Below, piece by piece: positions 56,794 to 64,000 of a stretch of 64,000 nucleotides of DNA. Both the position numbers and the translations under genes were made by a program. Positions within the stretch are counted from its first letter, which is position 1, and every line of letters starts with the position of its first letter. The notes under the pieces were generated by a model. That model was not told the DNA's origin and made no database searches. It worked only from the letters and a program-made list of their open reading frames with translations. Source of the DNA: Lentisphaera profundi (lineage in GTDB: Bacteria > Verrucomicrobiota > Lentisphaeria > Lentisphaerales > Lentisphaeraceae); assembly GCF_028728065.1 (NCBI RefSeq), contig NZ_CP117811.1, positions 2,604,001 to 2,668,000 of the forward strand, read 5' to 3'.

Positions 56794-57681
56794 ATGAAAT
56801 CTAAGCATCCATCACTCATAAAATACTTTTTAGTCATCTTCTTCATTTTTTTTACTTCCTTCGGCTTTGCTGAAGAGAAGGGCTTTGTCCGGGAACTCTA
56901 TAGAGATCTAAATATATTTGATAGACTCGAAGATGAATCCCGTCCCAAAATGATTAATCCTCGTGAAGCAGACAATCCCTTTTCTCACCTCGTCAATTTC
57001 CCCATTCAGTTTAATACTCATCGCAAGACGGGGCCTGATGATGAAATGAAAAACGTCCTTAATTTGAAGCCTCAGGTACCTTTTATCCTCAGTGATGATT
57101 GGTATGTCCTAACGAAAACAGATATCCCGATTGTGACAAAAGGCACCGATAGTACTAAAGACGGATTAGGAGATATTACCTTTACCACTTGGTTTTCTCC
57201 GATCAATGATCAACACTGGGCTTGGGGCGCGGGCCCCGCTATTAGTTTTCCCACTGCTACCGATACGACTCTGGGTACAGACAAGTGGTCCGTGGGCCCC
57301 TCTGTCGCCCTTGGTTATATTGATGAAACTTGGTTAATTGGGGGATCATTTACCAATATTTGGTCAGTGGGAGGCGAAGGTGACCGCGAAGTTAATTTCA
57401 CCAGTATACTCCCCGTAGTTAGCTATAAAATTAACCAAAAATACTTTCTGGTGAGCTCCCCCGTAATCACCTCAAATTGGCGTTTAGATGGTGAAACATG
57501 GACTGTACCCGTAGGGGGTGGCATCGGCCGCATAGTTAAATTTGATCGACATGTTGTGAGCTTGCAATTTCAGAGCTTCTATAATGTCATTCATCCCGAT
57601 CACGAAGCGGAATGGACTACACGTTTCCAAATTCAGTATTTCTTTCCTAAGAAACGCAAAGCCTTTTTTGAGCCAAAATAA
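56794..57681 (+). CDS. Outer-membrane beta-barrel protein, paralogue 1
   Basis: 295 residues with a signal peptide (ending GFA). A beta-strand rich pattern follows: LVNFPIQFNTHRKTG, LNLKPQVPFILSDDWYVLTK, GLGDITFTTWFSP, WGAGPAISFPTAT and the C-terminal FQIQYFFPKK. Its strands line up with the genes at 58806 and 60811. The layout fits the neuromedin-U-like/transporter type outer-membrane family (DUF3034-like), which has no proven function. It lies beside sulfatase 3 in divergent orientation, so it could take part in substrate uptake. Confidence 0.7.
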   Translation: MKSKHPSLIKYFLVIFFIFFTSFGFAEEKGFVRELYRDLNIFDRLEDESRPKMINPREADNPFSHLVNFPIQFNTHRKTGPDDEMKNVLNLKPQVPFILSDDWYVLTKTDIPIVTKGTDSTKDGLGDITFTTWFSPINDQHWAWGAGPAISFPTATDTTLGTDKWSVGPSVALGYIDETWLIGGSFTNIWSVGGEGDREVNFTSILPVVSYKINQKYFLVSSPVITSNWRLDGETWTVPVGGGIGRIVKFDRHVVSLQFQSFYNVIHPDHEAEWTTRFQIQYFFPKKRKAFFEPK

Positions 57682-57721
57682 ATAAAACTGACATCCCAGC
57701 TGTTTTCATGGCGGTGGCTAC

Positions 57722-58272
57722 GCCGAGCAGCAGCTCGGCCTTTGCTCAAAAACTAAGTTACCAACGCAAATAAGAATTCAAGCGTGGCTTCGGCACCATA
57801 TGTCGGACGCGCGGTCGTGAGCCCTGTTTTGTTCTTTATAGTCATGTGTGGCTCACGCCACACACTATTTTCTGTCGGGAGAAAGCCCTCGTGAGTGTTG
57901 AATCGTTCTTCTCTAAATCCTCACGACTTGTTCAATGCTAAAATCTGGCGACAATATAGGTTGAAAAAGTGATAGCAGCTAATGCTGTAAGCATGATTCA
58001 ATTAAGCCCAATGGCGTAAGCCTTGGGAAGTATTATAGAGAATAATGTTATGAATGCTGTAAGCATGAATTAGAGCTTTAATGCGTTCCTACAGAACTCA
58101 CTCATTGTTCATGTACTCGTTTTCCCTAGCTCTGACGAACTAGGCTAAGTTAATGCCTGCTTTCAGCACTAAAAAGTAAATCTAATTCCTTGCCCGATTA
58201 ATAGTTCATTTCCAGATTAATAGCTCCAAACAGAAATCTTAATTACCTGGCTACGCCGAGCACCAGCTTAGC
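57722..58272. repeat. REP-like palindrome group 1
   Basis: Separate hairpins with unlike arms: GCCGAGCAGCAGCTCGGC (57722), GTGTGGC-tcac-GCCACAC (57846), ATGCT-gta-AGCAT twice (57982, 58054), CCCAATGGCGTAAGCCTTGGG (58007) and GCCGAGCACCAGCTTAGC (58255). Two of them follow CTAC. Confidence 0.55.
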
Positions 58273-58668
58273 ATTGACTCAAAAACTATGTCACCTTTAA
58301 TTGTTGCCTACTATTTTCAAGTACTGAGGTATCTTCCTGACATGAAGTAAGAAGTACAATAAAAGAGTGATCAGAGTAAGTCTATTTTTCATGACTTCCA
58401 ACTAATAAATAAATTGATTAAAGGGATATGAAAAATAAAGCCCGTATCATATTGATCAATAGTAAAACGCTCCTAACAATCAATATTTCGGCAAAAATAA
58501 TTTGTAGAATTTAAAATTTTGACAGACTAGATTAACAGCTTTTCCATTTCTTCACTCACCAAGCATATAGAATTTACTGAATCTTTGTATTCACAACTCG
58601 CGCTTTATTAATTACCTTTAGACAAAATCTCGAAAAGGCTTTAATTTATTATAGAAATGGTTTCCAAA

Positions 58669-58743
58669 ATGATATTCAAAAAACTACTTCCCCTGACTTG
58701 TATGCTTGCGTCGGCATTTACCGCAGGAATCGTATGGCTGTAA
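58669..58743 (+). CDS. Possible 24-residue small protein
   Basis: Reads MIFKKLLPLTCMLASAFTAG then IVWL and stop; two basic residues and a hydrophobic core, like a truncated signal peptide. No good ribosome site precedes it, so it may be a remnant. Low confidence. Confidence 0.2.
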   Translation: MIFKKLLPLTCMLASAFTAGIVWL

Positions 58744-58805
58744 TTATTTAAACTCGTCTCACTATTGATCTCTAAACAATTTTTTAACATAACAAAGGAA
58801 TTGAA

Positions 58806-59603
58806 ATGAAAAAATTAACTTACCTCTTAAGTTTTTTACTTTTGGGCAGTATTCATGCTCAAGATAATGCACCTGAAGGTGACGACTTATCACTCGCTAA
58901 ATCTTCACAAAACCCCCTTGGCAATCTCATCTCTGTTCCTTTTGAGTTCAATGGTACTCCTGATATGGGAACCGAGAACAACAATAGCTACACTCTGAAT
59001 ATCAAGCCAGTTGTCCCGATGTCATTAGGCGATGATTTAACCCTCATTAACCGCTTCATTATCCCGGTTAATTATCAAGAAAGTCTTTACCCTGATCAAG
59101 GTAGCGATCAAGGTATTGGCAATATCACTTACCAAGGTTTATTTAGCCCTAAACCGACTAAAAGTGGCATTATCTATGGTGGTGGTCCCGTTATTCAAGC
59201 TCCTAGTAACTCAAATGATCGCTTTGGAGGAGATTCTTGGGCAGGTGGTTTAGCAGTAGTCGTGTTAGCAAAACCTGGTAACTGGCTTTTTGGTTGCCTT
59301 GGACAGCATTTGCAAGATTTTGCAGGTGGTGATAATGTCAGCCAATCTTCTTTCCAATACTTCGTTAACTACAACTTTGAAAATTTCTACCTCACTTCTA
59401 CGCCAACAATGGTTTACGACTGGACAGCGAAAGATAGCGATGACTCCACTTTAATCCCCGTCGGTGGTGGTGTAGGTAAACTCTTTCACTTTGGTAAAAC
59501 TCCCGTTGATATTCGCTTTCAGACTTTCTGGAATGTTGAACGTCCGGATGATGTAGGATCTTACACTGCTCAATTATCTGTGAAATTTCTTTTCCCAAAA
59601 TAA
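58806..59603 (+). CDS. Outer-membrane beta-barrel protein, paralogue 2
   Basis: 265 residues with a signal peptide ending SIHA. The body shares strand patterns with paralogue 1 (56794) and paralogue 3 (60811): NPLGNLISVPFEFNG, NIKPVVPMSLGDDLTLINRF, GIGNITYQGLFSP, IYGGGPVIQAPS, LIPVGGGVGKLFHFGK and a final AQLSVKFLFPK. It is predicted to form a small barrel in the outer membrane. AAAGGAA seven bases before the ATG is the ribosome site. A terminator lies 22 bases past the stop. Function unknown. Confidence 0.72.
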   Translation: MKKLTYLLSFLLLGSIHAQDNAPEGDDLSLAKSSQNPLGNLISVPFEFNGTPDMGTENNNSYTLNIKPVVPMSLGDDLTLINRFIIPVNYQESLYPDQGSDQGIGNITYQGLFSPKPTKSGIIYGGGPVIQAPSNSNDRFGGDSWAGGLAVVVLAKPGNWLFGCLGQHLQDFAGGDNVSQSSFQYFVNYNFENFYLTSTPTMVYDWTAKDSDDSTLIPVGGGVGKLFHFGKTPVDIRFQTFWNVERPDDVGSYTAQLSVKFLFPK

Positions 59604-59624
59604 GAATTTTCTAGCATCATTCAC

Positions 59625-59657
59625 AGGGATTGTGCCGCGAGGCACAATCCCTTTTTT
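59625..59657 (+). terminator. Terminator after outer-membrane paralogue 2
   Basis: AGGGATTGTGCC pairs with GGCACAATCCCT (12 bp, loop GCGA), followed by TTTTT. Confidence 0.9.
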
Positions 59658-59852
59658 GTGTTTTGCTAAAACCCTTTCACAAAAATACTCATACACTGGA
59701 AGTTTAGAGGCGATTATAGTTAGTCCAGCTCGCGGAGCTTCTCCTAATAAATGGGGACTTAAGGGATTGTCGCGAAGTGACGAAACTAAATTAGCATAGG
59801 ACAAAAATCTCACTCCTAGGACAATGAGAAACTGATTTCGTTATTAGCAAAG

Positions 59853-60030
59853 GCCAAGCTGGTGCTTGGCGTACCCATGCTTGAATAAATTTTACTCTTA
59901 TGACAATGGATAAATTTTGAGACAAGGCCAAGCTGGTGCTCGGCGTACCCAGGGGTGAATAAATTTTACTCTTATGACAATGGATAAATTTTGAGACAAG
60001 GCCAAGCTGGTGCTCGGCGTACTTAGGGGT
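59853..60030. repeat. 74-bp tandem repeat with palindrome core
   Basis: The palindrome GCCAAGCTGGTGCTCGGC plus GTAC starts at 59853 (variant TTGGC), 59927 and 60001, exactly 74 bases apart. The stretch between copies (TGAATAAATTTTACTCTTAT and on to GACAAG) is nearly identical in both intervals. About 2.3 copies. Confidence 0.8.
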
Positions 60031-60065
60031 GAGAATTTAAGCACATACCGAAGCTATGTAGTAGG

Positions 60066-60369
60066 GTAGCCACCGGATTTATCCGGTGGCCATTGTTAAA
60101 AAAATGATATTCATGCCGAAGCTCTTCGGCCGCGGAGGCATTAAAATTAGATGCTAATCTTTATCATCCGCATTGGAATGCGGTGCTCCCAGCTATTGCC
60201 ACACGATGATCTTATTCAAATACCACGGACTTAGGTCCGTGGCTACATTCCTAAGCTCTTCGAGCTCAAATATCTCTTAAATCCCACTCATTAGTGGCTC
60301 TCCGGCCCCGGGGGTATTAAAATCAGACACTAATCTTTATCATCCGCATTGGAATGCGGTGCTCCCAGG
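60066..60369. repeat. REP-like palindrome group 2
   Basis: GTAG followed by CCACCGGATTTATCCGGTGG (60070-60089); GCCGAAGCTCTTCGGC (60115-60130); CCACGGACttagGTCCGTGG then CTAC (60223-60246); and CCGCATTGGAATGCGG plus CTCC on its right side, twice (60168 and 60344). The latter lies in a near-identical block of about 56 bases (60137-60192 and 60313-60369). Read on the minus strand these carry GTAG or GGAG before the palindrome, as REP elements do. Confidence 0.65.
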
Positions 60370-60528
60370 CACGACCGTAAAAGATTTCAGCTTACTTATT
60401 ATATAGCTCACTAAAAAGCCTCGTAGACACGAGGCTAGATTAACAACAAAGCTTTGTTTTTTAACAGGGATTTTCAATCCTTATTAGCGCATTCTTTCGC
60501 CTTATGTGAAAACCACAAAAATACTACT

Positions 60529-60810: not shown

Positions 60811-61692
60811 TTAATCTCTAAAAGGATTTTTTACGACAGGAATAAAGAGGATCCTAAAGTTCCAATCATAGCCTAAATCATCAGGCCGGACGACGGCATA
60901 CTGAGCTTCGAAGGCAATACGAACAGGCATTTTACCGATCATATAAATATCTGAATAACCCAGCCCCACTGGAACCGTTAGGGCATTATCAGAATCGGCC
61001 TCCCAGTCATAAGTAATATTTGGTGACATTCCCAATAATTCAGTTTTACTTAAGCGGTAATTTAAAAAATACTGTACATCAGTGAAACTGGTACTTTCTC
61101 GATCATCCTCTCCTGCATAGGACCACCAATGTTGTCCTAAGGCTCCGTAATTCCATCCACCTACGTTGGGTGCCAAATTAGCAAAAAGAAAAGCTGGACC
61201 CGCTTGCCATTTTTCTTGTCCTAAAACTTCGTCTTCTGCAGTTGGGAAGATTTGAGTAAAGCCCACACCCCAAACAGCACCATCTAATTTATCGGGTCCA
61301 ACTAAAGTTAAAAGTGCTGTATCGCCAAAACCATTAGTACGGTCATTCTGGGGACTTGAATTGTATTGAATCACTGGTCTTACAATCAAATTCCAATCTT
61401 CGTCGTTAAATTCAAATGGAATCGACATTACAGGCTGAAACTTAAATAGATTGACATCTTCAGAACCCTTAATTCCATCACCACGTACTTGTCGATAATC
61501 ATTTTGAGCCCATAGCATCCAGGCTGCCCCTAGTGGATTAGCAGTCATCTTACCAATTTTTTCTAAATCTGGTTTTTCTTCTTTCAGTTGTAGTTCTTCA
61601 GCTTCTTCTTCATAAGTATGACGAAGTTCTAGTTCTTGCGCGTAAAGAGAAAAGCTCATACTCAGCATTACAAATACTATTAATTTTTTCAT
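60811..61692 (-). CDS. Outer-membrane beta-barrel protein, paralogue 3
   Basis: 293 residues with a signal peptide ending LYA. A short charged stretch (EEEAEELQLKEEKPDLEK) precedes the barrel. Shared blocks with paralogues 1 and 2 are NPLGAAWMLWAQNDYRQV, VMSIPFEFNDEDWNLIVRP, GFGDTALLTLVGP and LTVPVGLGYSDIYMIGKMPV. Transcribed downstream of the FadL gene with an 18-base gap, so the two form an operon. Probable outer-membrane role, perhaps paired with the FadL channel. Specific function not known. Confidence 0.72.
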   Translation of the reverse strand: MKKLIVFVMLSMSFSLYAQELELRHTYEEEAEELQLKEEKPDLEKIGKMTANPLGAAWMLWAQNDYRQVRGDGIKGSEDVNLFKFQPVMSIPFEFNDEDWNLIVRPVIQYNSSPQNDRTNGFGDTALLTLVGPDKLDGAVWGVGFTQIFPTAEDEVLGQEKWQAGPAFLFANLAPNVGGWNYGALGQHWWSYAGEDDRESTSFTDVQYFLNYRLSKTELLGMSPNITYDWEADSDNALTVPVGLGYSDIYMIGKMPVRIAFEAQYAVVRPDDLGYDWNFRILFIPVVKNPFRD

Positions 61693-63319: not shown

Positions 63320-64000
63320 TTAAAGTGCGGGAATAACCCAAGGTATCAGTGACTTCGCCCATATTTCGTCAAAGTTCAACTCTCTCATTTTCCACTGAGT
63401 GATTTTCAGTTTAAAAGAGCGTCCTGTATAAATGATTTTCCCTGCTAAATCGAATAGTTTACGGCGTATGGTCGTTGGGTAGCAGTTCCAAGCAAAGCCC
63501 GCAATATTACGTTTGAAAATCTGAAAGAGATTGAAGGATATAATCCCCATTGTGTACCAAAAAGAGTTAGCGTGATAATCGAGACAAGGCATTCTCTCAC
63601 TAGCAAAGTCTTTAGCCGCACGGTGGGTAAGTTCATCAGCTCCACGAGAATGGTCATAATCAATTAATTCTTGATCGGAACAATCTTTCACATCAAGATT
63701 TGTAAGAATAATACGACTTTCCAAACCTAATAAGGCTTCTCCATTTTCTTCTGTTGGTCGTAAAAACAAAGCTCTATATTGCATTTCTTCTGGCCAGGTC
63801 GCTCGTCGTTCTTGAAAAGCGAGGTAATGCCAAGTGCAGGCTTTTTTACTATAGATACCATCGAACTCCTCTATTTTTTTATTTGCATGTATCTTGTGGT
63901 CTGAATAACGCTTTCCTGCACAAATAAAGTTGATTTTAAGCTCGTCGCAAGCCGCAAAAATCTTTTGATCGTAATAACCTCCATCCATACGCACTATGAT
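63320..64000 (-). mobile_element. IS1380-family transposase, N-terminus beyond window edge
   Basis: About 226 C-terminal codons are visible. IIVRMDGGYYDQKIF is the end of the second catalytic block. The block with the catalytic Glu, YDHSRGADELTHRAAKDF, fits the Y-x3-R-x3-E-x6-K spacing of the DDE_Tnp_1 group, and the downstream FWYTMGIISFNLFQIFKRNI is typical of IS1380. The reading frame is unbroken. The element is probably intact but extends beyond base 64000. Confidence 0.85.

Follow-up and report, generated by a model that had tools for sequence, protein, structure and literature searches.

Hairpins in an intergenic cluster of Lentisphaera profundi: REPs of RAYT-type transposases and Acido-Lenti-1 units as the likely DNA substrate of subclass 1.2 Y1 transposases

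The window, a stretch of 64,000 nucleotides (C1:2604001-2668000), belongs to the 5.46-Mb, two-contig genome of Lentisphaera profundi (G000). Three ORFs (56794-57681, 58806-59603 and 60811-61692) surround a cluster of palindromes in it; they are mutually related at 31-35% identity, have no Pfam match, and are probably outer-membrane proteins. A sequence-only reading had described the interval 57722-60369 as noncoding DNA, which is wrong for its middle part, as the interval consists of two intergenic stretches on either side of the 265-aa ORF at 58806-59603. The palindromes themselves lie where that reading had put them, and their feet are as it described: GTAC in the palindromes that we call class A, GGAG in class B, and GTAG in C and D. 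Counting perfect stems of at least 7 bp with loops of 2-8 against 300 dinucleotide shuffles, we found 8 in the right stretch (59604-60500; shuffle mean 0.38, with 8 reached in 0 of 300 shuffles), and 2 in the left stretch (57682-58805), where the excess over the mean of 0.67 is not significant and was matched by 39 of 300 shuffles. About 3 kb from the cluster, a DDE transposase frame (PF13701) truncated by the window edge occupies 63320-64000 on the minus strand. The features of the cluster are given below, where AL1 stands for the Acido-Lenti-1 motif (RF01687) and R1 for a covariance model trained on eleven AL1 copies, all 46 nt long, from ten genomes, with the shorter-loop copies left out.

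57718-57739, plus strand: class A REP, degenerate, with a CTAC foot; one mismatch to the class pattern
57845-57889, plus strand: AL1-type variant F, with a stem as beside the subclass 1.2 gene C1:696934; R1 E 6e-6
57941-58202, no strand: AL1-pair mobile element (MITE/REPIN-like) with terminal inverted repeats, flanked by CTA and AG
57981-58027, minus strand: AL1 unit, left member of a divergent pair; R1 E 3e-8
58125-58170, plus strand: AL1 unit, right member of the pair; RF01687 42.6 bits (gathering 37), R1 E 5e-11
58251-58272, plus strand: class A REP, degenerate; two mismatches to the class pattern
59625-59652, plus strand: intrinsic terminator of ORF 58806-59603, not a REP
59768-59820, minus strand: possible degenerate AL1-type unit, weak; R1 E 0.05
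59853-59874, minus strand: class A REP, first of a 74-bp tandem array
59927-59948, minus strand: class A REP, second of the 74-bp tandem array
60001-60022, minus strand: class A REP, third of the 74-bp tandem array
60044-60089, minus strand: AL1-type variant D, GTAG foot; R1 E 1e-4; D-C pairs occur elsewhere
60168-60192, minus strand: class B REP, GGAG foot, exact to the class pattern; RAYT at C2:503599
60223-60266, plus strand: AL1-type variant C, GTAG foot on the reverse strand; 42 copies; R1 E 9e-6
60344-60368, minus strand: class B REP, in copy two of a 72-bp repeat
60417-60436, minus strand: intrinsic terminator for ORF 60811-61692, not a REP

The sequence-only reading had described the hairpins as REP-like and as a mixture of several families. 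This description suits classes A and B, which are both multi-copy and do represent a mixture of families repeated across the genome; it fails for the two terminators and for six units of a different, two-hairpin build, and several of the palindromes that had been listed as separate items are halves of one such unit. When the palindromes were counted genome-wide, the class C pattern was found 42 times, class A 93 times and class B 29 times, and the reversed control patterns 0 times each, so the idea that every palindrome might be unique in the genome can be dropped. As had also been noted, the window has no Y1 transposase gene; elsewhere in the genome there are 17 matches to Y1_Tnp (PF01797). 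Among these genes are the predicted RAYTs with matching REPs adjoining them: reading of the flanks revealed class A arrays, GCCAAGC..GCTTGGCGTAC, at two class-2 Y1 genes (C2:575922 and C1:185004), the class-2 Y1 gene C2:503599 is followed by CCGCATTGGAATGCGGGGCTCCCAG, which is class B with its GGAG foot, and ~1.4 kb from the RAYT-like gene C1:1253853 there is another exact copy of class B. Judged by these neighborhoods, classes A and B are ordinary REPs of class-2 Y1 (HUH) transposases with cognate RAYTs. They fit the REP/REPIN/RAYT system directly, being palindromes with a foot tetranucleotide, dispersed as well as arrayed, beside a low-copy Y1 gene, with GTAC and GGAG as variants of the canonical GT[AG]G foot. 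Five similar Y1 proteins of ~330 aa in the same genome (e.g., C2:407706 and C1:2301854; motifs NHFH and YISLNPVRA) resemble subclass 2.3 by length and motif, and reading of the sequence around their genes showed no REP-like flanks.

The six two-hairpin units of the window begin at 57845, 57981, 58125, 59768 (weak), 60044 and 60223. In each, hairpin 1 (~8 bp), with a conserved CTA/CTG beside its foot, is separated by ~12 nt from a second, short hairpin (hairpin 2). Only the unit at 58125 passes the gathering threshold of RF01687, and those at 57981, 57845, 60223 and 60044 were found by model R1 alone. The motif was tabulated by Weinberg et al. 2010 (PMC2864571), and Rfam files RF01687 as an sRNA gene. 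The whole genome has 71 matches to RF01687, including a dense array around the Y1 gene C1:772197, and variants of AL1 surround a second Y1 gene, C1:696934, in a hotspot (C1:676000-704000) crowded with class C and AL1-type units. Where AL1 copies are dispersed and not in tandem arrays, the usual arrangement is two units in divergent orientation, 139-144 bp apart (10 such pairs). All 13 pairings of variants D and C are divergent too. This is also the topology of AL1 around tnpA. The variants C and D of the window do not directly enclose a subclass 1.2 gene that would qualify as their cognate. A simple insertion of the class B unit into the window's D-C pair was considered and rejected, as the interior of the pair has been replaced and not merely interrupted. 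At locus L014, a D-C pair is 459 bp apart instead of 114, and its interior carries ~345 bp of extra sequence with nested or recombined units. Tandem arrays of AL1 have periods of ~124 and 72 bp (L044 1174-1838; L019 1621-1883 and 4713-5564).

The products of C1:772197 and C1:696934 are proteins of ~140-154 aa, 48% identical to each other. Across 28 sequences of these transposases, H56, H58, W99, Q100, Y119, Q123, H126 and H127 are invariant, which gives the motifs HuH (DHVH), WQ and Y-x3-Q-x2-HH, and the transposase profile matches the TnpA structures of IS608 and ISDra2 in PDB with E ~1e-15. HuH, WQ and Y-x3-Q-x2-HH are the signature of subclass 1.2 of TnpA_Y1 (Quentin et al. 2018, PMC6006769). 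By length, motifs and low, divergent copy number, which are the same as described for that subclass, the two proteins and their relatives fit subclass 1.2. In its published description, the subclass has no REP, in general lacks IS200 end structures, and comes mostly from Cyanobacteria and Bacteroidetes (PMC6006769), whereas the genes studied here are flanked by AL1 and are common in Verrucomicrobiota, Planctomycetota and Acidobacteriota.

The association between AL1 and these genes extends well beyond Lentisphaera. A profile search of genome contigs, with a six-protein alignment as query, gave 80 subclass 1.2 loci, most of them from metagenome bins, so that individual assignments may err among the phyla represented (Verrucomicrobiota, Planctomycetota, Acidobacteriota, Armatimonadota, Hydrogenedentota, Pseudomonadota and Bacteroidota). 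AL1 lies within 400 bp of tnpA in 71 of the 80 loci and on both sides in 56, with median gaps of 59.5 nt upstream and 54 nt downstream. The orientation is also regular: the nearest upstream AL1 is on the minus strand in 58 of 66 cases, and the nearest downstream AL1 on the plus strand in 49 of 61. At the thresholds used, AL1 was absent from the remaining 9 of 80 loci, mostly of Bacteroidota and Ignavibacteria; some Bacteroidota loci (L200, L213, L222 and L225) have weak AL1 matches, yet at the expected place and strand. When all 4227 Rfam families were scanned around 29 subclass 1.2 genes that lie in other genomes of the same phylum, RF01687 was found at 19 of the 29, and the same scan otherwise returned only one spurious overlapping match. 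Presence and absence of the two partners agree as well: in a sample of 194 genomes of the phylum, with a subclass 1.2 gene counted at 130 bits or more, AL1 is present in 32 of 37 genomes with such a gene and in 11 of 157 without (Fisher p=4e-22). The exceptions are the five genomes of the 37 without AL1 at the thresholds used, and the eleven AL1 genomes without a detected subclass 1.2 gene. Ten genomes have only weaker transposase matches (<80 bits), several of which resemble ordinary multi-copy IS200 transposases, and nine of these genomes lack AL1. Finally, stems are more alike within a locus than between loci (similarity 0.92 vs 0.81; permutation p 0.0005).

AL1 pairs also lie in what is probably mobile DNA. 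The pair at 57981-58170 sits in an element of ~262 bp with terminal inverted repeats, which in the AL1-pair elements of Lentisphaera are CTATTAATCCGGCAAT..ATTGCCGGATTAATAG, and such elements are also found in two congeners, G194 and G195. One insertion can be read against its empty site: G194 carries a 279-bp AL1-pair element after an aspS-like gene, and in G195 both flanks (85% and 74% identity to G194) are exactly contiguous. The junction, ..TTTACTA^AGCTTAG.., is unambiguous and places the insertion at CTA^AG with no target duplication; it represents one event, of an element without tnpA. The CTAA at the target is complementary to TTAG, the reverse-strand foot of AL1 hairpin 1. At another site, next to the ortholog of a sigma-factor gene, the element is missing from both congeners, with a junction that is not clean. 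At the window locus itself, G194 has no empty site, as the orthologous genes there are separated by ~6 kb that holds other genes, and that stretch has neither a unit of classes A-D nor a strong AL1 match.

Given its entry in Rfam, one could suppose that AL1 is a real ncRNA, for example a regulator or the transposase's RNA partner, and that it is simply carried along with tnpA. Its stems do covary, with double changes in 10 of 13 pairs and 98.6% of cells paired, and a 2026 paper (PMC13298647) supposes a regulatory role for AL1 downstream of the KLIKK proteases of Tannerella, where no mobile elements were found. The kinds of base pair speak otherwise. Among 1670 pairs in 129 distinct AL1 copies, 1655 are Watson-Crick, 5 are G-U (0.3%) and 10 are A-C, in contrast to 13 tRNAs from the retrieved loci with 254 Watson-Crick pairs, 25 G-U (9%) and 0 A-C. 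The G-U tolerance expected of structured RNA helices is thus not seen in AL1, and since G-U should be better tolerated than A-C wherever selection acts on an RNA structure, we read AL1 as DNA. The copies for this count were chosen with R1, whose training set held one G-U pair, but a resulting bias against G-U would not favor A-C. In addition, AL1 occurs on both strands, in inverted pairs and in tandem arrays, with 71 matches in this genome, and no promoter-like site lies directly upstream of the AL1 copy in the window. We therefore regard an ncRNA as rather improbable. AL1 is most likely the DNA substrate of subclass 1.2 transposases and not an RNA gene.

A somewhat stronger competitor, which we still consider unlikely, is that the Lentisphaera AL1-pair elements are MITEs moved through their terminal repeats by some other transposase, with AL1 as passenger or former target. 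Terminal repeats beyond AL1 were sought at tnpA in 34 loci of other genomes and none were found; because the tnpA loci thus lack a counterpart of the repeats outside the AL1 pair, another enzyme may move the Lentisphaera-type elements. On the other side, the sole empty site lacks a target duplication, which would be unusual for a DDE transposase, the AL1 pairs diverge just as they do around tnpA, and the association with tnpA in other phyla would be left unexplained. There is very little to recommend the view that the hairpins are host regulatory or structural elements, such as terminators or protectors of mRNA ends, that have been amplified in some other way. REPs affect mRNA stability and termination, and two of the palindromes are indeed terminators, but the remaining units have no T-runs, lie on both strands, form arrays and inverted pairs, cluster at Y1 genes, and are missing from the orthologous genes of G194. 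As for chance or low-complexity sequence, the left stretch taken alone would allow it, and the genomic copy numbers against control counts of 0 leave it next to no probability. We are quite confident in reading the cluster as an accretion of mobile units around one gene, in which classes A and B are REPs of RAYTs and the six other units are AL1-type, best read as the single-stranded DNA end-substrate of subclass 1.2 transposases.

In the mechanism that we propose, the transposase would bind AL1 hairpin 1 once it is folded in single-stranded DNA. The TTAG foot, the reverse complement of the CTAA by the stem, would then pair with CTAA sites and so set both cleavage and target, and inverted AL1 pairs could transpose as non-autonomous elements in the manner of REPINs. 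Binding, cleavage, the guide-target rule and subclass 1.2 TnpA as the mover of these copies are what we infer. Taken as a whole, it is probable that RF01687 represents the DNA end-hairpin of subclass 1.2, with a TTAG foot that picks CTAA and REPIN-like inverted pairs, in at least seven phyla. A guide-target pairing analogous to the proposed TTAG-CTAA rule is known from IS200/IS605, and likewise from REPtron Mb (PMC8266576). Further likenesses to IS608 and ISDra2 of the IS200/IS605 family are the Y1 HUH transposase, the hairpin ends and, in the one insertion that can be read, of an element without tnpA, the lack of target duplication and a foot complementary to the target. The differences are that the G000 genome has no near-identical multi-copy elements including tnpA, its two subclass 1.2 genes being 48% identical, that no TnpB was seen beside the gene, and that AL1 ends are inverted with two hairpins each. 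REPINs share the inverted pairs; unlike REPs, however, AL1 has two hairpins and in its main variant a TTAG foot instead of GTAG/GTGG, and its transposase has Y-x3-Q-x2-HH instead of the class-2 Y-x3-NP. TIRtrons (TIRYT) are also Y1 genes, in part from Acidobacteria, flanked by inverted repeats that recur in the genome (Di Nocera et al. 2013, PMC3733652). Most TIRYTs are subclass 2.1 (PMC6006769), and AL1 is not described in PMC3733652; this comparison is by published description.

We found no link between RF01687 (Acido-Lenti-1) and a transposase in the open-access literature, and as far as could be found, the reading of AL1 as a transposase substrate is new. If true, it would account for two orphans, an "ncRNA" family that is 16 years old and has no function, and a transposase subclass described without a REP, and the AL1 copies of Tannerella would be traces of mobile DNA. 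It would also mean a ready substrate for the biochemistry of subclass 1.2. Annotation pipelines label AL1 as ncRNA, and the comparison of G-U with A-C on covarying stems could flag further Rfam families that are DNA hairpins.

AL1 has previously been noted near group II introns. In one locus of the congener G195 (L238 1420-1496 and 1618-1664, contig C22), only a few bases separate the end of a group II intron (RF00029) from the left hairpin of an AL1 pair that follows it, and a long ORF upstream of the intron end resembles its maturase by eye. The intron looks as if it had been inserted at the AL1 hairpin, which fits what would be expected of hairpin-targeting introns.
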